From contig JANXYK010000011.1 in NCBI GenBank assembly GCA_025350055.1, positions 62,001-126,000 on the forward strand: a stretch of DNA of 64,000 nucleotides, written 5' to 3'. The position numbers were made by a program, and so were the translations under genes. Origin of the DNA: Gammaproteobacteria bacterium (lineage in GTDB: Bacteria > Pseudomonadota > Gammaproteobacteria > Steroidobacterales > Steroidobacteraceae). Below the pieces are notes generated by a model. It was not told where the DNA came from. It ran no database searches and saw only the letters and a list, made by a program, of their open reading frames with translations. Shown here in pieces: positions 38,130-58,935 of the stretch. How positions within the stretch are numbered: position 1 is the first letter of the stretch; each line of letters opens with the position of its first letter.

Positions 38130-39293
<1,164 letters not shown>

Positions 39294-39362: not shown

Positions 39363-39401
39363 TTGATCATTGGCAACCGACCAGTGAACAGGCAAGGTTC
39401 C

Positions 39402-40499
39402 ATGCAAAACGCAGCACTTTCCGCGACTCTCGCCAGAACGCCGGCCAGCGCCTGCGCGCACGGCGATGATCCGGTCGCCTGCGACAGCGCATCGCTCCAG
39501 CTGCTGGACATCGCACGCCGCGTAGCCCGCAGCGATTGCACCGTGCTGATCGCGGGCGAATCAGGCACCGGCAAGGAAGTGGTCGCCCGTTTCCTGCACC
39601 GCCAGTCGCACCGCCATGGCGGTCCCTTCGTCGCGGTCAACTGCGCGGCGATTCCCGAGCACATGCTCGAGGCCATGCTGTTCGGCTGGGAGCGCGGCGC
39701 CTTCACCGGCGCGCACAGCGCGCACCAGGGAAAATTCGAACAGGCGCAGGGCGGCACGCTGCTGCTGGATGAAATCTCCGAGCTGCCGCTGGCACTGCAG
39801 GCGAAACTGCTGCGCGTGCTGCAGGAACACGAGGTAGAGCGCCTGGGTGCGCGCCTGCCGGTGTCGCTCGATGTGCGCCTGCTCGCGACCACCAATCGCC
39901 GCCTGCGCGAGGACGTCGCCGCCGGGCGCTTCCGCGAAGATCTCTATTACCGCCTGAATGTGTTTCCGCTGGCGATCAGCGCGCTGCGCACGCGCCGCGC
40001 CGACATCCTGCCGCTGGCGATGCGCCTGCTGACCAGCTACAGCTCACCGGGTGGCCGCATTCCGGCGCTCGCGGCCGATGCCGGCCAGAAGCTGCTGGAG
40101 CACAGCTGGCCCGGCAATGTGCGCGAACTCGAGAACGTGATGCAGCGTGCGCTGGTGCTGTGCGATGGCGGCATTATTCAGAGCGAACACATCTGCTTCG
40201 AAATCGCCGAGCCACCGCGTGCCGCCGTGCCCACGCTTGCGACGCCCGCGACAGCCGCGCCCTTGGATGTCACGAGTGCCAAAGCCGCCGGGGCCGGTGC
40301 GCCGATCGCCGGCTGCGATCTCGCGGGCACGCGCTGTGCCGCGGAGTATGAACTGATCCTCGAGACACTGCGGCACGATGGTTCCAGCCGCGAGCGCGTG
40401 GCCGAGCGCCTCGGCATCAGCCCGCGCACCTTGCGTTACAAGCTGGCGCGTATGCGTGCGGCCGGCATTGGCCTGGGCGTCATCGGGAGTGCGGCATGA
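39402..40499 (+). CDS. Second sigma-54-dependent activator, FleR/FlrC-like, without receiver domain
   Basis: A 365-residue AAA+ activator. Walker A GESGTGKE is at 52-59, RGAFTGAHS at 98-106, Walker B LLLDEISE, then [18 protein letters not shown] and [18 protein letters not shown]. The C-terminal HTH is RERVAERLGISPRTLRYKLARMRAAGI. Gene position just before fliE and the C-terminus fit FleR/FlrC, but the usual phosphoacceptor receiver domain (about 120 residues) is absent and there is no FleS kinase gene. AAGG lies four bases before ATG 39402. The gene overlaps fliE by four bases. Confidence 0.88.
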   Translation: MQNAALSATLARTPASACAHGDDPVACDSASLQLLDIARRVARSDCTVLIAGESGTGKEVVARFLHRQSHRHGGPFVAVNCAAIPEHMLEAMLFGWERGAFTGAHSAHQGKFEQAQGGTLLLDEISELPLALQAKLLRVLQEHEVERLGARLPVSLDVRLLATTNRRLREDVAAGRFREDLYYRLNVFPLAISALRTRRADILPLAMRLLTSYSSPGGRIPALAADAGQKLLEHSWPGNVRELENVMQRALVLCDGGIIQSEHICFEIAEPPRAAVPTLATPATAAPLDVTSAKAAGAGAPIAGCDLAGTRCAAEYELILETLRHDGSSRERVAERLGISPRTLRYKLARMRAAGIGLGVIGSAA

Positions 40500-40856: not shown

Positions 40857-42527
40857 ATGGCCAATGACCAGCTCGCGGGCGCCTTGCGCCCAGCCTTCAA
40901 TCTCCGACCCCTGCTGCTGCTGCTCGGCATTGCCGGTGCAGTAGCCGCTGGCGTGGCGGTGATGCTGTGGTGGCAGGGTCCGAACTGGAGCGTGCTGTAC
41001 GGCAACCTGGAGGCCAACGACGCCAGCCAGGTGGTGCAGGCGCTGCAGACCGCCGGCATCAAGTACAAGCTCAGCGATGCCACGGGTGCCGTGATGGTCA
41101 GCGCCAGTGAAGTGCGCGAGGCACGCCTCAAGCTCGCCTCCCAGGGCCTGCCGGAGAGCGGCAACAACGGCCTCGAGATGATCAACAAGGATTCGGGCAT
41201 CGGCGTCAGCCAGTTCATGGAGAACGCGCGCTACCAGTACGCGCTCGAGAACGAACTGGCACGCACGATCGCCACGATCAAGTCGGTAGTCGCCGCGCGC
41301 GTGCATCTGGCGATCTCGCAGCAATCGGCATTCATACGCGAGCGCCGCCCAGGCAGTGCCTCGGTGCTGCTGCAGCTGCGGCCCGGTGGTCGGCTGGAAG
41401 CCGAGCAGGTGCAGGCGATCGTGCATCTGGTGGCCTCCAGCATCCCGGATCTCAATGCCGAGCAGGTCACCGTGGTTGATCAGCAGGGCCGCCTGCTAAC
41501 GTCCAGCGTATCTCCGCAAGCGACGATCCAGAGCGAGCGCTTCGCCGCCGCGCAACGCGTCGAGGAGAGCTACGCCCAGCGTGTCGAGGGCCTGCTGGCG
41601 CCGCTGTTCGGCGCCGGTCGCGTGCAGGCGCAGGTCACCGTGGATCTGGACGCGATGGAGAATGAGGAATCACACGAACAATACAAGCCCGACAGCGCGG
41701 TGGTCCGCAGTGAGCAGACCGCCGAGCAGACTGCGCCTGTCGGTGGCGCTGCCAGCGGTGGCGTGCCTGGCGCGCTCACCAACCAGCCGCCGGCCGGTGG
41801 CACAGTCGCTGCCGTCGCGGCGCCGCAGAGCGGTAATGCAAATGCGCCAGCGGGCACCACGACGCCCGCGAGCGCGGCGGCGCCGGGTGCAGCAGGTGCT
41901 GCGGCTGCCGCGGCGGTGCCGGAGAGCGTCAGCAAGCAGGCGACGCGCAATTTTGAGATCGATCGCACGCTCAGCTACAAGCGTGAACCCGGTGGCCGCA
42001 TCAAGCGCCTGACCGTGGCCGTGCTGGTCGACAACCCGAGCAAGATGGCTGCCGATGGCAAGACCGTTGCAGCCCCCCTGAGCGCGACCCAGATCGATGA
42101 CATCACGAAGCTGGTGAAAAACGCGGTGGGCTTCGATGAAGCGCGCGGTGACAGCGTGAGCGTGGTCAACGAAGCTTTCCACAGCGAACAGACCGACATG
42201 AAGCCCGAGGACGTGCCGATCTGGCAGCGACCGATGGTGCAGGACATCGCGCGACTCGCACTCGGTGCGCTTGTGCTGCTGGCGATCGCGCTGGGCATCC
42301 TGCGGCCGATGATCCGCAGCCTCACGACCGCCACGCTGACGCCGGTGATGGTCGGTGCCGGGCAGGCCACGGCAGGTGCAGGTGGTGAACTACCGTCGGG
42401 CGGTGCGGGCGGCGAAGGGCAGGCTGCGCCACTGGCTTACGAACAGCAGATCGTGCAGGCCAAGAACCTGGTCGCACAGGATCCCAAGCGCGTGGCGCAG
42501 GTCGTGAAGACCTGGGTGGGTGAGTGA
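40857..42527 (+). CDS. fliF: Flagellar MS-ring protein FliF
   Basis: A 556-residue inner-membrane ring subunit. TM1 is at about 20-40; the ring-building motifs are VLYGNLEANDASQVVQAL, ALENELARTIATIKSVVAARVHLAI and VDLDAMENEESHEQYKPDSAV. TM2 is at about 465-485. The C-terminal FliG-binding tail ends with NLVAQDPKRVAQVVKTWVGE. An Ala/Gly-rich insert at about 295-355 is longer than in most relatives. It overlaps fliG by one base (TGATG). Confidence 0.95.
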   Translation: MANDQLAGALRPAFNLRPLLLLLGIAGAVAAGVAVMLWWQGPNWSVLYGNLEANDASQVVQALQTAGIKYKLSDATGAVMVSASEVREARLKLASQGLPESGNNGLEMINKDSGIGVSQFMENARYQYALENELARTIATIKSVVAARVHLAISQQSAFIRERRPGSASVLLQLRPGGRLEAEQVQAIVHLVASSIPDLNAEQVTVVDQQGRLLTSSVSPQATIQSERFAAAQRVEESYAQRVEGLLAPLFGAGRVQAQVTVDLDAMENEESHEQYKPDSAVVRSEQTAEQTAPVGGAASGGVPGALTNQPPAGGTVAAVAAPQSGNANAPAGTTTPASAAAPGAAGAAAAAAVPESVSKQATRNFEIDRTLSYKREPGGRIKRLTVAVLVDNPSKMAADGKTVAAPLSATQIDDITKLVKNAVGFDEARGDSVSVVNEAFHSEQTDMKPEDVPIWQRPMVQDIARLALGALVLLAIALGILRPMIRSLTTATLTPVMVGAGQATAGAGGELPSGGAGGEGQAAPLAYEQQIVQAKNLVAQDPKRVAQVVKTWVGE

Positions 42528-43540
42528 TGCCTGAGGCACAGACCAGTTCGCGTCCCGGGGTCGAGCAGGCGGCCATCCTGCTGCTGTCGCTCGGTGAACA
42601 GGATGCCGCGCAGGTGCTCAAGCACCTGGGCGCCAAGGAAGTCCAGAAGGTCGGCGCGGCGATGGCGCAGCTCGCGGGCATCTCGCGCGAGGAAGTCAGC
42701 AGCGTGCTCGGCAATTTCGCCACGCGTGTCGAGCAGCAGAGCTCGCTTGGCGTCGACTCCGATGAATATGTGCGCAAGGTGCTCAACGAAGCACTGGGCG
42801 CAGAGAAGGCCGGCGGCGTGATCGATCGCATCCTGCGCGGCCGCAGCAGTCGTGGTCTCGAAGCCGTGAAGTGGATGGAGCCCAAGGCCGTAGCTGCCAT
42901 GCTGCGCCAGGAGCATCCGCAGATCATCGCCATCGTGCTCTCGTACCTGGAGTCCGAGCAGGCCGGCGAGGTGCTGGCCGGGCTCCCCGAGGAGATACGG
43001 CCGGATGTGATCGTGCGCATCGCCACACTCGATGGCGTGCACCCCTCGGCGCTCAACGAACTCGATGAAGTACTGGAGAAGCAGTTCGCCGGCAGCAGCA
43101 CCGCCAAGACCGGTGGTTTCGGCGGGCCGAAAGTCGCGGCCGCGATCCTGAATCTTGTGGGGTCGGGCGCCGAGACGAAGATCATCGAAGAGATCGCCAG
43201 GGGCGATGCCACGCTCGGCCAGAAGCTACAGGACCTGATGTTCGTGTTCGAGGACCTGAAGAGCATCGACGATCGTGGCATGCAGGAACTGCTGCGCGAG
43301 GTGCCGGGCGACAAGCTCATCCTGGCCCTGAAGGCCACCGACGAGGAGCTGAAGCAGAAGTTCTTCAAGAACATGTCCGAGCGCGCATCCCAAATGCTCA
43401 AGGATGACCTCGAGGCCAAGGGCCCGGTCAAGCTGAGCGAAGTGGAGGAAGCGCAGAAGGAAATCCTGGTCACCGCGCGCCGCATGGCCGAGGAAGGTCG
43501 CGTGCAGCTCGGTGGCAAGGGCGGAGAAGAGTATGTCTGA
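42527..43540 (+). CDS. fliG: Flagellar motor switch protein FliG
   Basis: A 337-residue C-ring rotor protein that contacts FliF, FliM and the stators. N-terminal domain AAILLLSLGEQDAAQVLKHLGAKEVQKVG, middle LRQEHPQIIAIVLSYLE (with the EHPQ motif that binds FliM), C-terminal torque domain FVFEDLKSIDDRGMQELLREV with the charged helix. The EHPQ motif is intact although no fliM lies in this cluster. Confidence 0.95.
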   Translation: MPEAQTSSRPGVEQAAILLLSLGEQDAAQVLKHLGAKEVQKVGAAMAQLAGISREEVSSVLGNFATRVEQQSSLGVDSDEYVRKVLNEALGAEKAGGVIDRILRGRSSRGLEAVKWMEPKAVAAMLRQEHPQIIAIVLSYLESEQAGEVLAGLPEEIRPDVIVRIATLDGVHPSALNELDEVLEKQFAGSSTAKTGGFGGPKVAAAILNLVGSGAETKIIEEIARGDATLGQKLQDLMFVFEDLKSIDDRGMQELLREVPGDKLILALKATDEELKQKFFKNMSERASQMLKDDLEAKGPVKLSEVEEAQKEILVTARRMAEEGRVQLGGKGGEEYV

Positions 43541-47266: not shown

Positions 47267-47299
47267 CTATCAACACCAGGAACAGTGAGGAATCAGGAC

Positions 47300-47809
47300 A
47301 TGTCCACCCCAGCTAAACCCGCCGCCGCTGGCGGCGCCGCACCGGTCGCCAAGAAAAGCAAACTGCCGCTGCTCATCATCGTGGCCGTCGTGGCACTCGG
47401 AGGCGGAGGTGCCGCGTTCTGGTTCCTGCGGCCACAGGCCGCGGCCGCCGACGCGAAGCCTGCGGCTGCCGAGACCAATACCAAGGCGGCGCCGATCTAC
47501 TACAAGTTCGAACCCGCTTTCGTCGTCAATTTTGGCGCCGAGGGCAACACCCGTTTCCTGCAGGTCACGCTCGAGGCGATGAGCCGCGATCCAAAGGTGG
47601 TCGAGGAGATCAAGAACAACGAGCCCGCGATCCGCAATGATCTGGTGCTGCTGTTCTCCGCGCAGCAGTACGACACGCTGATCGTGGCCGAAGGCAAGGA
47701 AAAGCTGCGCCAGCAGACACTCGAGACCGTGCGCAAGGCGGTCAGTGCCGAGGGCGGCAAGGCCGAGGCGGTCGAGGGCGTGTACTTCACCAGCTTCGTG
47801 ATTCAATGA
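47300..47809 (+). CDS. fliL: Flagellar basal body-associated protein FliL
   Basis: A 169-residue single-pass membrane protein that supports the stator. The short cytoplasmic N-terminus is followed by a TM segment LLIIVAVVALGGGGAAFWFL (about 25-45). The periplasmic domain has YKFEPAFVVNFG, RFLQVTLEAMSRDPKVVEEI and VYFTSFVIQ. GAGG lies nine bases before ATG 47300. Its stop overlaps the next start (ATGA), and that next gene is fliN rather than fliM. Confidence 0.93.
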   Translation: MSTPAKPAAAGGAAPVAKKSKLPLLIIVAVVALGGGGAAFWFLRPQAAAADAKPAAAETNTKAAPIYYKFEPAFVVNFGAEGNTRFLQVTLEAMSRDPKVVEEIKNNEPAIRNDLVLLFSAQQYDTLIVAEGKEKLRQQTLETVRKAVSAEGGKAEAVEGVYFTSFVIQ

Positions 47810-48174
47810 GTACCGAAGGCGCAGCAGCGGCCAGCGCTGGTGCAGCCCCTGCCGAAGCGCAGGCCACTGCATTCGCCAACCTGAGCGCCGACCCCGGCGC
47901 CGGCACTGGCGGCGACATCAATCTCGATGTCGTGCTCGACATACCGGTGACGCTGTCGATGGAAGTCGGGCGCAGCAAGCTCAGTATCCGCAATCTCCTG
48001 CAGCTGAACCAGGGATCGGTGGTCGAGCTGGACCGCGCAACCGGCGAGCCGCTGGATGTCTATGTGAATGGCACGCTCGTGGCGCATGGCGAAGTGGTCG
48101 TGGTCAACGAGAAATTCGGCATCCGCCTCACAGACGTCATCAGCCCTGCCGAGCGCATCCGCAAGCTGCGTTGA
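47806..48174 (+). CDS. fliN: Flagellar motor switch protein FliN
   Basis: A 122-residue C-ring protein. The N-terminal 40 residues are an Ala-rich linker. The SpoA domain (about 45-120) has VLDIPVTLSMEVGRSKLSIRNLLQLNQGSVVELDR, EPLDVYVNGTLVAHGEVVVVNEKFGIRLTDVIS (core LVAHGEVVVVNEKFGIRLTD). Length is normal for FliN, so it is not a FliM-FliN fusion. It directly follows fliL by a 4-base overlap. Confidence 0.95.
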   Translation: MSTEGAAAASAGAAPAEAQATAFANLSADPGAGTGGDINLDVVLDIPVTLSMEVGRSKLSIRNLLQLNQGSVVELDRATGEPLDVYVNGTLVAHGEVVVVNEKFGIRLTDVISPAERIRKLR

Positions 48175-51882: not shown

Positions 51883-54012
51883 GTGCGCCAATTTTGCGCT
51901 GCCAACACATTGCCCATGGCCGAGCTGGCACTACCCCGCAGCCCAGAATCCCTGAACATCATGCAGCTGCTGCGGCGTGGCCTCGGCGCGCCTTTGCTGT
52001 TGCTCGCGGTGCTGGCGATGATCGTGCTGCCACTGCCGCCGATCGCGCTCGATGTGCTGTTCACCTTCAACATCGCGCTCTCGGTGCTGGTGGCGATGGC
52101 CGTGGTGAACGTATCACGGCCACTGGACTTCGCGATCTTCCCCACCGTGCTGCTGTTGGCCACCCTGTTGCGCCTGGCGCTCAACGTGGCCTCGACCCGC
52201 GTGGTGCTGCTGCACGGTCACGAGGGCACCAGTGCCGCGGGACGCGTGATCGAAGCCTTCGGCGAATTCGTGGTCGGTGGCAACTACGCCGTCGGCATCG
52301 TGGTGTTCGCGATCCTGACCATCATCAACTTCGTGGTGGTGACCAAGGGCGCGGGCCGCATCTCGGAAGTCAGCGCGCGCTTCACCCTCGATTCGATGCC
52401 CGGCAAGCAGATGGCGATCGATGCGGACCTGAACGCGGGCCTGATCACGCAGGACGAGGCGCGTGCGCGCCGCATCGAGGTGCGCTCGGAAGCCGACTTC
52501 TACGGTTCGATGGATGGTGCCAGCAAGTTCGTGCGCGGCGACGCCACGGCCGGAATCCTGATCCTGGTGATCAACATCGTCGGAGGACTTGCCATCGGTG
52601 TGATGAGCCACGGCATGGCCTTTGGCGACGCCGCGAGGGTGTACACGCTGCTGACAATCGGTGACGGCCTGGTGGCGCAGATTCCGGCGCTGCTGCTCTC
52701 GACCGCGGTCGCGATCATTGTTACGCGCATGTCGCGCGCCCAGGACCTGGGCGGCGAACTCGCGACCCAATTGTTCCGCCAGCCGCGCAGCCTCGCGGTG
52801 GCTGCTGCGCTGTTGGGAGTCATGGGATTGATTCCAGGCATGCCGAATGTGGCATTTCTGCTGTTCGCAGCGCTGCTGGGCGGCGGCGCCTGGATGCAGC
52901 AGCGTCGCAATCAGGCGGCCGCGGCCGCAGCCGCGGCGCCAGTCGTTGCCCCGGTGCCCGTGAGCAAAGAACCGCGCGAACTGTCCTGGGACGATGTGCA
53001 ACCGGCCGATCTGCTCGGGCTCGAAGTCGGCTTCCGTCTCGTGCCGCTGGTGGACAAGGCCAACGGCGGCGAACTGCTCTCGCGCATCCGCGGCGTGCGC
53101 CGCAAGCTTTCGCAGGAGCTCGGCTTCCTGGTGCCGGCGGTACACATCCGCGACAACCTCGAGCTCGCGCCCAACGCCTATCGCGTCAGCCTTGCGGGTG
53201 TGGCGGTGGGCGAGGGCACAGTCTATCCCGATCGTGAACTCGCGATCAATCCCGGTCGCGTGTTCGGCAAGCCGCCGGGCATCGAAGTGCGTGACCCGGC
53301 CTTCGGCATGGAGGCGATCTGGATCGATCCGGCGCGCCGTGAACACGCGCAGACTCTGGGTTACACCGTGGTCGATGCCAGCACCGTGATCGCCACGCAC
53401 ATCAGTCACGTGGTGCAGACGCATGGCCACGAGCTGCTGGGTCATGAGGAAACCCAGCAACTGTTGAACGGTCTCGCCAAGAGCGCACCGCGCCTGGTTG
53501 AAGACCTGGTGCCGAAGGTTCTGCCGCTGGGCACCGTGGTGCGCGTGCTGCAAGGTCTGCTCGCCGAGCGCGTGCCGATCCGCAATATCCGCACCATTGT
53601 TGAAACACTGGCCGAGCACGCGCCACGCACGCAGGATCCGGCGATATTGCAGGCGCAGGCGCGCATCGCGCTCTCGCGCCAGATCGTGCAGGACATCGCC
53701 GGCACCGGCACCGAGCTGCCCGTGGTGACGCTCGAACCCGACCTCGAACAACTGCTGCAGAGCTCATTGGGCAGTGGTGCAGGCAACGCGGCACTGGAAC
53801 CCGGGCTCGCCGAGCGGCTGGCCACGCGGCTCGCGGAATCCGCGCAGCGCCAGGAAGCCGCGGGCGAAGCCGCGGTATTGATGGTGGCACCGGCCTTGCG
53901 CGCCACACTGGCGCGCTTTGCGCGCGCCAGTGTGCCGGGCCTGCATGTGCTGGCCTGGAATGAGATTCCTGACAACCGGCGCGTGCGCATGATCGCCGCG
54001 ATCGGCCGCTAG
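51883..54012 (+). CDS. flhA: Flagellar export gate protein FlhA
   Basis: A 709-residue protein with eight TM helices (about 25-330) and a large cytoplasmic ring domain. The FHIPEP signature GRISEVSARFTLDSMPGKQM is intact, with DADLNAGLIT after it. The C-terminal domain shows VGFRLVPLVDK, RRKLSQELGFLVPAVHIRDN and HGHELLGHEETQQLL. GTG 51883 has AGGAG six bases upstream. Confidence 0.96.
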   Translation: MRQFCAANTLPMAELALPRSPESLNIMQLLRRGLGAPLLLLAVLAMIVLPLPPIALDVLFTFNIALSVLVAMAVVNVSRPLDFAIFPTVLLLATLLRLALNVASTRVVLLHGHEGTSAAGRVIEAFGEFVVGGNYAVGIVVFAILTIINFVVVTKGAGRISEVSARFTLDSMPGKQMAIDADLNAGLITQDEARARRIEVRSEADFYGSMDGASKFVRGDATAGILILVINIVGGLAIGVMSHGMAFGDAARVYTLLTIGDGLVAQIPALLLSTAVAIIVTRMSRAQDLGGELATQLFRQPRSLAVAAALLGVMGLIPGMPNVAFLLFAALLGGGAWMQQRRNQAAAAAAAAPVVAPVPVSKEPRELSWDDVQPADLLGLEVGFRLVPLVDKANGGELLSRIRGVRRKLSQELGFLVPAVHIRDNLELAPNAYRVSLAGVAVGEGTVYPDRELAINPGRVFGKPPGIEVRDPAFGMEAIWIDPARREHAQTLGYTVVDASTVIATHISHVVQTHGHELLGHEETQQLLNGLAKSAPRLVEDLVPKVLPLGTVVRVLQGLLAERVPIRNIRTIVETLAEHAPRTQDPAILQAQARIALSRQIVQDIAGTGTELPVVTLEPDLEQLLQSSLGSGAGNAALEPGLAERLATRLAESAQRQEAAGEAAVLMVAPALRATLARFARASVPGLHVLAWNEIPDNRRVRMIAAIGR

Positions 54013-54050: not shown

Positions 54051-55199
54051 ATGAAGATCAGGCGCTACCTCGGTACCGACATGCGCGATGCGCTGCGCCA
54101 GATCCGCGCCGAGCTCGGCAACGATGCCGTGATACTCAGCACGCGGCCACTGGGCAACGGCGTGGAAGTGAGCGCGGCTGTCGATGCTGCGCAGTTGCAG
54201 GACAAGGCACTGGCGAGCGTTGCTGCGCCGGTCGCGCCGCCGATGGCCGCGGGCAGCGCCGTACCGACGCGCGAGCAGCAGGCCATGAGCGAAGAGCTGC
54301 GCACGCTGCGGCAATTGCTGGAGCGCCAGCTGGCTGCGCTGGCCTGGAATGATTTCACGCGTCGCGAACCCCTGCGTGCGCAGGCGCTCACTGAACTGAC
54401 TGAGCTTGGTGTGGCGCGCGATGTCGCGCTTAAAGTACTGGCACAGCTGCCAGCCGAGGCCGAGATTGCCGCACGCGGATCGGCGCATCTGGGTTTGCTG
54501 GCACAGGCCCTGTCGACCGCGGAATCCCCGCTCAACGACGGCGGCGCGCTAGCCGTGATCGGCGCTGCTGGCGCGGGTCGTACCACGGTGCTTGCCAAGC
54601 TTGCCCTGCGCTGGGTGCTCGATCAGGGCGCCGAGTCGCTGGCCATTGTCACGATCGATGACGAACACATTGGCGCCGCGGCACAGGCGCAGGCGCTGGG
54701 TCGCCTGCTCGGTGTCGCGAGCTACCGGTTTGCGGATGCCGCGGCCTGCCTGGCCGCGAGCGAGCGCATCGAAGGCTATGACTGCCTGTTGATCGATGCG
54801 CCCGCCTTGAGCGCGCGCGCGGAAGACAACGCCGCACTCGCCGCGACACTGCGCGCCGCCGTGCCGGGCCTGCGCAGCCTCCTGGTGCTGCCGGCGACCA
54901 GCCAGGCCGACGTGCTGGGTGAAACCCTGCGGCGTGCGAGCGCCTACGCACCGCACTGCTGTGCACTCACGCACTACGACGAAGCCATGAGCCTGGGCGG
55001 CGCTTGTTCGGCGCTGATCCGCGCGCAATTGCCACTTGCACTGCTGGGCAACGGACCGCAGCCCACCGACGAGCTGCATCCGGCGCGGGCACCCCAGATC
55101 ATCGCGCGCGCCGTGGAGCTCGCGCGGGTCAACGACATTCATGCCGACGAGGATTTGCTCGCGCGGCGCTACGGGAGAGAGATCAATGCGGCAGCGTAA
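54051..55199 (+). CDS. flhF: FlhF-like signal-recognition GTPase with degenerate nucleotide motifs
   Basis: A 382-residue SRP-type protein that normally sets polar flagellar placement. The B domain MKIRRYLGTDMRDALRQIRAELG and the N domain are clear. The G domain is altered: G1 is GAAGAGRTT (171-179, Lys to Arg 177) instead of G-x4-GKT; G3 reads DAPALSAR (249-256) instead of DTAGR-like; G4 is THYD (307-310) instead of TKxD, though EAMSLGG after it is kept. Length is a little short. GTP binding or hydrolysis is doubtful. It overlaps flhG by 14 bases. Confidence 0.88.
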   Translation: MKIRRYLGTDMRDALRQIRAELGNDAVILSTRPLGNGVEVSAAVDAAQLQDKALASVAAPVAPPMAAGSAVPTREQQAMSEELRTLRQLLERQLAALAWNDFTRREPLRAQALTELTELGVARDVALKVLAQLPAEAEIAARGSAHLGLLAQALSTAESPLNDGGALAVIGAAGAGRTTVLAKLALRWVLDQGAESLAIVTIDDEHIGAAAQAQALGRLLGVASYRFADAAACLAASERIEGYDCLLIDAPALSARAEDNAALAATLRAAVPGLRSLLVLPATSQADVLGETLRRASAYAPHCCALTHYDEAMSLGGACSALIRAQLPLALLGNGPQPTDELHPARAPQIIARAVELARVNDIHADEDLLARRYGREINAAA

Positions 55200-56052
55200 T
55201 GCGGTGCTGGGTGCCCGGCCCGCGCAGGGCATCCAGGTGATAGCAGTCAGCGGCGGGAAGGGCGGCACCGGCAAGACCACGGTGTCCGTCAATCTCGCCA
55301 CGGCCCTCGCGGCCGCGGGCCGCAGGGTGTTGCTGCTCGATGGCGACCTCGGGCTCGCCAACGTCGATGTGCTGCTGGGGCTTACGCCCGCGGGCACGCT
55401 CGAGCAGGTACTGCAGGGAAAACGCCGCCTCGAGGAGATCGTGGTGCGCAGCGCCGATGGCGTGAGCGTGATCCCGGCCGCTTCGGGCGTGGCGCGCATG
55501 GCCCAATTGCCGCCCAGGGAACTCGCGGCCATCGTGCAGGCTTTCAGCTCGCTCCCAGGCGACTACGACACGCTGTTGATCGATACCGCCGCGGGATTGG
55601 GCGATGCGGTGCTCGCCTTCTGTCAGGCCGCACAGCACCAGCTGCTGGTGATCCGCAATGAACCGGCGAGCCTCACCGATGCCTATGCACTGATCAAGAC
55701 CCTGAGCCAGGAGCGCAAGCTGCGCCGCTTTCGCGTGCTGGTGAACATGGCGCGCGCCGGCAGCGAGCCGCAGCAACTGTTCCGCCGTCTGCAACGCGTC
55801 GCCGATCGCTTCCTCGACGTGACGCTCGACTATGCCGGCGACATTCCCGACGACGAGAGCGTGGCGCGCGCAGTGCGCGCGCAGCGTTCGGTGCTGGCGG
55901 CCTTCCCCGGTGGCCCGGCTGCGCGCGCTTACCGTCAGCTCGCCAGTGCCACGCAGCACTGGCCGGTGCCGCCGGAGTCGGTCGCCGGCATGCAGTTCTT
56001 CATCGAGAGATTGCTGGCGCGTCCGCCAGCCCGATTGCAGGTGATCAAATGA
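55186..56052 (+). CDS. flhG: MinD-like ATPase FlhG/FleN (flagellar number regulator)
   Basis: A 288-residue P-loop ATPase limiting flagellar number and antagonising FleQ in Pseudomonas. Deviant Walker A GGKGGTGKTT (about 24-33), LLLDGDLGLANVDVLLGL (switch I/Walker A'), and DYDTLLIDTAAGLGDAV (switch II). ATG 55186 with GGGAGA six bases upstream lies inside flhF. The N-terminal DQAxxLR-type helix that activates FlhF in some species is not evident (here RQRNAVLGAR). Confidence 0.93.
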   Translation: MRQRNAVLGARPAQGIQVIAVSGGKGGTGKTTVSVNLATALAAAGRRVLLLDGDLGLANVDVLLGLTPAGTLEQVLQGKRRLEEIVVRSADGVSVIPAASGVARMAQLPPRELAAIVQAFSSLPGDYDTLLIDTAAGLGDAVLAFCQAAQHQLLVIRNEPASLTDAYALIKTLSQERKLRRFRVLVNMARAGSEPQQLFRRLQRVADRFLDVTLDYAGDIPDDESVARAVRAQRSVLAAFPGGPAARAYRQLASATQHWPVPPESVAGMQFFIERLLARPPARLQVIK

Positions 56053-56777
56053 ATGGTGCACAAGCCTATGCGAGCGTGGCGCCGGCCGGTGACGGAGACG
56101 CGTTGGTGCGTCGTCACGCCGACCTGGTCAAGCGAATTGCCTATCATCTGGCCGGTCGTTTGCCTCCCCAGGTGGAGGTGGATGATCTGGTGCAGTCGGG
56201 CATGATCGGCCTGCTCGAAGCCGCGCAGCATTTCACGGCCGGACGCGGCGCCAGTTTCGAAACCTACGCCGGCATCCGCATCCGCGGTGCCATGCTCGAT
56301 GCGCTGCGTAAGCTCGACTGGGCGCCGCGCTCCGTACATCGCAAGGCGCGCGCCGCGGCGGCCGCGATCCGCTCAGTGGAAGCCAACACCGGCCGCGAGG
56401 CCAGCGACAGCGATGTAGCCGCGCACATGGGTGTCTCGATCACCGACTACCACGGCATCATCCAGGATGCGCTCGGCTGCCAGCTGCTGCGCCTCAATGA
56501 CGCCGACGATGGCGAGGATTCGACACTTGATCGGCTCGCGCACGCGGGCCCCGATCCACAGACTGAAATCCTGGACGACGCGCGTCGTCAGGCCGTGATC
56601 GATGGCATCAATCGCCTGCCCGAGCGCGAGCGGCTGGTGCTGTCGCTCTATTACGAACAGGAACTCAACCTCAAAGAGATCGGTGCGGTGCTCAAGGTCA
56701 CCGAGTCGCGAGCCTGTCAGCTGCACGGCCAGGCGCTGGTGCGGTTGAAGGGTTTGCTGACCGAGTGGCGCGCTTAA
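56049..56777 (+). CDS. fliA: RNA polymerase sigma-28 factor FliA
   Basis: A 242-residue alternative sigma factor for late flagellar genes. Region 2: VKRIAYHLAGRLPPQVEVDDLVQSGMIGLLEAA and YAGIRIRGAMLDALRKLDWAPRSVHRKAR (core RIRGAMLDALRKLDWAPRSV). Region 3 lies in the middle, and region 4 is LPERERLVLSLYYEQELNLKEIGAVLKVTESRACQLH. ATGA overlap with flhG. Its targets in the window are the flgM and fliC promoters. Confidence 0.96.
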   Translation: MNGAQAYASVAPAGDGDALVRRHADLVKRIAYHLAGRLPPQVEVDDLVQSGMIGLLEAAQHFTAGRGASFETYAGIRIRGAMLDALRKLDWAPRSVHRKARAAAAAIRSVEANTGREASDSDVAAHMGVSITDYHGIIQDALGCQLLRLNDADDGEDSTLDRLAHAGPDPQTEILDDARRQAVIDGINRLPERERLVLSLYYEQELNLKEIGAVLKVTESRACQLHGQALVRLKGLLTEWRA

Positions 56778-58479: not shown

Positions 58480-58935
58480 ATGCAATTTCTGACCGACACA
58501 CTGCAACAGCTGCGCATCGACTGGGTCGCCGTCAACACGGCGCTGGTGATCATCGCCCTGGCGATGGTGACAGTGCTGCTGCAGGCCCAGTTGCGGCGCC
58601 TGCGCCGGCAATCGAGCTGCGATCTGCAGCGCGTGTTCGAGCTGCTGGACCTGATGCGCCTCGATTCGCAGGAGCAGTTGGCGATGGCACCTACTGTCAA
58701 CTCGCCGGCCGAGGCGCACTACGCCATTGCGTCCGCGGCGCCGCCGCCGGAGCGTCCGAGCCCTGCAGTCGTGCGCGGGATCAATGAAGACGTGGATTAC
58801 CGCGCCGCGGCGCGCCTGGCCGAGCGCGGCACTTCGATGCGCGAGATTGCCGAACGCTGCGGCCTGGCGAGCGGCGAAGCGCGCGTGCTGATCGCGCTAC
58901 ACCAGGCGCGTGCCAAACGCGCGGTGCATGCATGA
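58480..58935 (+). CDS. DUF2802-domain membrane protein
   Basis: A 151-residue protein with an N-terminal TM segment (VNTALVIIALAMVTVLLQA, about 15-33), then a charged coil. The C-terminal DUF2802 motif is DYRAAARLAERGTSMREIAERCGLASGEARVLIALHQA, a HTH-like repeat. In Pseudomonas and Xanthomonas DUF2802 genes sit at the end of motility/chemotaxis operons. Function is unknown. The stop overlaps the HDOD gene. Confidence 0.85.
   Translation: MQFLTDTLQQLRIDWVAVNTALVIIALAMVTVLLQAQLRRLRRQSSCDLQRVFELLDLMRLDSQEQLAMAPTVNSPAEAHYAIASAAPPPERPSPAVVRGINEDVDYRAAARLAERGTSMREIAERCGLASGEARVLIALHQARAKRAVHA

Follow-up and report, generated by a model that had tools for sequence, protein, structure and literature searches.

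The flhF gene in the window (the whole stretch of 64,000 nucleotides that was analysed) encodes the genuine FlhF orthologue of this genome, but the protein lacks most of the residues on which GTP binding and hydrolysis by FlhF depend. The gene (54051-55199, + strand; 382 amino acids) was recognized from its open reading frame and translation and from NCBIfam and Pfam matches as a degenerate homologue of the SRP-type GTPases. Sequence comparisons document the motif losses, the outline of their order, purifying selection on the gene and conserved synteny. As a GTPase fold that has lost motif residues and is retained under selection, this FlhF can be classed as a pseudoGTPase, and we hold with moderate confidence that it links FliG to FimV/FipA as a tether that operates without a GTPase cycle. 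For polar placement of the flagellum, GTP binding by FlhF is regarded as essential, its exact role being debated and species-dependent. A lineage that keeps FlhF while losing its motifs in order is a natural evolutionary experiment: in it, the scaffold role (FliG to FimV/FipA) can be told apart from the switch role, and the residues that can be lost first become visible. The host group consists of uncultured soil and water bacteria, in which FlhF may serve as a static scaffold and not as a switch; we know of no cultured member of the genus. In the literature searched, of which our coverage is incomplete, we found neither a naturally degraded FlhF nor an FlhF counterpart of the known pseudoGTPases. 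Septin and p190RhoGAP pseudoGTPases (PMC10731463, PMC5593906) are likewise GTPase folds without catalytic or binding residues that serve assembly or regulation, but they are eukaryotic and lie outside the SRP-GTPase family.

Motifs, locus and domains of the window FlhF

The motif positions were set by aligning the protein with the FlhF structures of S. putrefaciens and B. subtilis. On the + strand, the G1/P-loop (GAAGAGRTT, 54561-54587) carries Arg177 (codon CGT, 54579-54581) at the place of the Lys; G3 reads DAPAL (54795-54809; DAPALSAR when extended) instead of DTxGx, with A250 for Thr and A252 for Gly; and G4 is THYD (54969-54980) instead of TKxD, with H308 for Lys and the Asp kept. These three changes had been pointed out in the initial annotation, and both the translation and the structure-based alignment confirm them. 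Two more were found in addition: His206 replaces the catalytic Arg of G2 (DDEHIG, 54657-54674), and Pro336 replaces the Gln of the closing loop (GNGP for xxGQ, 55047-55058). Thus, the P-loop Lys and the canonical residues of G2 to G5 are missing (R177, H206, A250, A252, H308 and P336). The residues kept among those contacting the nucleotide are the P-loop glycines, Thr178, Asp249 of G3, Asp310 of G4 and Glu311. The alignments are colinear, which rules out motifs shifted within the protein, and they revealed no intact motif copy elsewhere in the window FlhF.

The FlhF proteins of S. putrefaciens and Vibrio (PDB 8r9r, 9en1) share with that of the window the B domain, the NG fold, the flhA-flhF-flhG-fliA order and the presence of FipA-like and FimV genes. 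In contrast to them, the window FlhF has the G1 Lys, G2 Arg, G3 Thr/Gly, G4 Lys and closing-loop Gln replaced, and the adjacent FlhG lacks the DQAxxLR motif. In V. alginolyticus FlhF, the residue offset would place R334 opposite His206 and position 305 opposite Arg177 (numbering of PMC6092412). The V. alginolyticus mutant R334A, lacking this same catalytic Arg, still places its flagella (PMC6092412), showing that hydrolysis can be dispensable. However, the mutant keeps the other motifs and presumably binds GTP, whereas the window FlhF has lost the P-loop Lys and others as well.

The protein is identified as FlhF by its B domain, its SRP-type NG fold and its gene order. Its best family matches are FlhF models (NCBIfam PRK14721, E 2e-57; Pfam SRP54, 4e-16). 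It scores 157.5 bits against TIGR03499, under the curated FlhF cut-off of 174.15, which is consistent with eroded motifs. A genome-wide search found no second FlhF, intact or otherwise, so that flhF is a single-copy gene; the remaining TIGR03499 matches in the genome are far weaker, partial and of SRP-GTPase type. The gene lies inside a flagellar cluster that spans about 23.8 to 59 kb of the window, in the order flhA-flhF-flhG-fliA-motA-motB-fipA. Its 5' neighbour is flhA (51883-54012, + strand; Pfam FHIPEP, 4e-266), and it is followed by flhG (55183-56052, + strand) and fliA (56049-56777, + strand; NCBIfam FliA). Two sigma-54 activators in the same cluster (38130-39293 and 39363-40499) are without a FleQ-type N-terminal domain according to Pfam.

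The B domain, which interacts with FliG (residues 1-46; 54051-54188, + strand), matches the FlhF B-domain structure 9en1 in phmmer (E 1.7e-6). It is followed by the N domain (residues 74-158; 54270-54524, + strand), seen as helices in an AlphaFold model, and by the G domain (residues 159-346; 54525-55088, + strand), in which the fold is predicted to be kept and the motifs are eroded. Of the positions at which 121 canonical FlhFs are conserved, the window FlhF lacks the conserved residue at 17 of 48 in the G domain, at one of 12 in the B domain and at none of five in the N domain. The initial annotation had called the B and N domains recognizable. The loss is not limited to motif residues: within the G domain of the window species, the excess of losses at motif positions over other conserved positions is not significant (Fisher p 0.13). 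Constraint has thus relaxed over the whole G domain while the B domain is held. The AlphaFold model (42 sequences; mean pLDDT 84.5) has a complete NG fold, and its best PDB match is 8r9r, the FlhF of S. putrefaciens with GDP bound (TM 0.89 by target length). This model is ligand-free and carries no information on nucleotide binding.

Graded loss of motif residues among relatives

The relatives compared came from two sources, namely whole genomes belonging to the genus and family, and GTDB genome contigs that were scanned. Among named organisms, Steroidobacteraceae (Steroidobacter, Peristeroidobacter) are nearest, and most records are MAGs. Within the genus, the losses form a gradient. Neither the G4 Lys (G4 being TRID, TRCD, TRFD or THYD) nor the closing-loop Gln remains in any sampled member of the genus clade with a readable G4. 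In a subclade of seven, the G2 Arg and the G3 Gly are gone too. The P-loop Arg is limited to the window species, L047 and L048, with Lys in L049-L052. The three Arg codons (CGT in the window sequence and CGG in both L047 and L048) come from three separate MAGs and stand against AAG in the sister species L049-L052, so K177R is not a sequencing error. A single clade for the three P-loop Arg sequences was not rejected as a constraint (AU p 0.32), and the substitution may have arisen once or twice. A second related lineage (L083, L096, L097 and L098) likewise has a G4 with TR or TH. One of its members, L097 (CAMCBU010000010.1), belongs to a MAG titled Klebsiella pneumoniae; its flagellar locus groups with this order, and the title is probably wrong.

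The P-loop Arg is not ordinary variation among the FlhFs of the wider class sample. Of 77 rows, 75 have the P-loop Lys (five of these 75 being Ffh/FtsY-like controls), and a single gene that is broken across two frames accounts for the other two rows. An FlhF in two frames with the break near the P-loop (L181 and L193, G387:C30) may reflect a frameshift or an assembly error. No further P-loop substitution was found in the wider sampling of about 70 FlhFs. Four FlhFs from other families of the class (L178, L183, L186 and L188) have eroded G2/G3 motifs with the P-loop Lys kept, apparently independently of the window lineage.

flhF is under purifying selection. In simple NG86 estimates, its dN/dS is 0.13-0.20 between subclade members and 0.17 between L047 and L048, both of which have the P-loop Arg (pN 0.095 against pS 0.43 in the G domain). 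Comparing the window species with L050 or L052 gives about 0.3, dS being near saturation for window pairs. The corresponding flhA values are 0.05-0.13, with 0.12 in the window comparison. The initial annotation had argued from the open frame and the overlapping neighbours that flhF is not a pseudogene. This holds: the frame is open over all 382 codons, its 3' end overlaps the flhG start at 55183, dN/dS is low, and the P-loop Arg recurs in three MAGs.

The FlhG activator helix and FlhF erosion

The N-terminus of the window FlhG (MRQRNAVLGARPAQGIQVIAV) has no DQAxxLR activator helix, as first noted in the initial annotation, whereas the Walker A motif (KGGTGKTT) and the C-terminal membrane-targeting-like segment (FFIERLL) are intact. 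The absence is real, but it is not specific to the window species, because relatives with a canonical FlhF also have an FlhG without this helix. Pseudomonas offers a similar case: its FleN is reported to lack DQAxxLR like the window FlhG, but its FlhF is a measured GTPase (PMC12713375), unlike the window FlhF with its eroded motifs. Helix loss alone is therefore no proof of GTPase loss.

Nevertheless, the two characters are associated. Among 141 FlhF/FlhG pairs, 74 combine the helix with a canonical FlhF, 42 have no helix and a canonical FlhF, 25 have no helix and a degraded FlhF, and none has the helix together with a degraded FlhF. In an FlhF tree built without the motif columns, all seven inferred motif losses fall on helix-lacking branches, whose share of the tree length at risk is 34% (binomial P 0.0005). 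This P value of about 5e-4 is rough, since it rests on a gene tree, parsimony states, uneven sampling and a simple helix pattern applied under a strict rule (MQTPEL was not counted). The helix loss is a trait at the family level and appears to have preceded the FlhF losses. Such a link between the FlhG helix and FlhF erosion is a prediction that can be tested in any genome.

Possible function of the eroded FlhF

The initial annotation had proposed a nucleotide-independent FlhF that places flagella without a GTPase cycle. The absence of a cycle is well supported, as the losses are old, shared and confined to the G domain of a gene under selection. Nucleotide independence is a different matter: with Asp249, Asp310, Thr178 and the P-loop glycines in place, weak, GDP-only or otherwise altered binding is possible. 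Judging from the residues, the window FlhF has likely lost GTP hydrolysis, and a loss of all nucleotide binding is plausible. That it continues to place the flagellum at the pole is inferred from three features: the synteny, the conservation of the B domain, and a genome that encodes FliG, FimV and FipA.

In the mechanism that we propose, the B domain would grip FliG and the intact NG fold would bind FimV/HubP and FipA as landmarks of the pole. With the residues for GTP hydrolysis gone, and most of those for tight GTP binding too, FlhF would hold FliG-FliF at the cell pole constitutively, as a tether that lacks a GTP-driven dimer/monomer switch. The contacts that this requires have precedents: the NG-HubP contact of FlhF is independent of nucleotide, the B domain binds FliG (PMC11236974), and FipA is a second polar partner of FlhF (PMC11620751). 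The switch appears to have been dismantled stepwise, beginning with the FlhG activator helix, followed by the G4 Lys and closing-loop Gln of FlhF; the G2 Arg and G3 Gly went next, and the P-loop Lys last. The fuller scenario, in which this dismantling ends in a nucleotide-free scaffold that places flagella and in which similar partial losses occurred several times, always after helix loss, is more tentative, and we would not put it quite at even chances. In Vibrio, hydrolysis is dispensable, but GTP binding is held to be needed and GTP-binding mutants of FlhF lose function (PMC6092412, PMC7226244); in P. aeruginosa, GDP weakens the FlhF-FliG binding (PMC12713375). A nucleotide-free FlhF would therefore need rewiring. 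Moreover, GTP hydrolysis frees FliG for FliM/FliN in the published model, so a different way of releasing FliG would be needed in this lineage.

The nucleotide-contacting residues that are retained (the P-loop glycines, T178, D249, D310 and E311) speak against the tether. They could instead belong to a hydrolysis-dead FlhF with permanently bound GTP or GDP as a structural cofactor, as in some septins, the dimer/monomer state thereby being fixed. Septin pseudoGTPases are a precedent for hydrolysis-dead nucleotide binding (PMC10731463), and the eroded FlhFs outside the window clade retain the P-loop Lys. For L049-L052, which keep this Lys, a bound cofactor is as likely as the tether. For the window species we consider it rather unlikely, though a serious candidate: the P-loop Arg, the loss of the G3 Gly and the G4 His together are expected to weaken the contacts to the triphosphate and the base.

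A slow decay of an FlhF that is turning dispensable, with the flagellum placed by another route or not placed, would account for flhF evolving faster than flhA and fliA in the window comparisons and for a fliM outside the flagellar operon. The faster rate of the window flhF (dN/dS about 0.3 against 0.12 for flhA) also fits a partial relaxation. Decay is nonetheless improbable in view of the open frame, the flhG overlap, the almost fully conserved B domain and a dN/dS well below 1, which extends to the G domain of species with the P-loop Arg. An FlhF still active as a GTPase through Arg177 and other substitutes is very improbable even with a positively charged Arg common to three MAGs, as the G2 Arg, G3 Gly, closing-loop Gln and the co-catalytic helix of FlhG are all gone.

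The partners that the proposed tether would use are encoded in the genome. The window contains fliG, the proposed B-domain partner (42524-43540, + strand; Pfam FliG_N, FliG_M and FliG_C), and a fipA-like gene (58480-58935, + strand; Pfam DUF2802, 8.9e-10, above the cut-off) for a known FlhF partner, and a FimV gene is present elsewhere in the genome. The residues reported to be invariant in FipA include G110 and E126, whose counterparts are present here, and L129, whose counterpart is apparently Val. The flagellar operon has no fliM between fliL and fliN (47285-48174). This does not mean an incomplete C-ring; fliM is found on a different contig, next to a second copy of fliN (L131 4210-5495, G000:C63). 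The displaced fliM-fliN pair is suggestive only as a hint of an altered release step. The fliM of G001 is likewise on another contig, and G004 has the usual fliL-fliM-fliN order.
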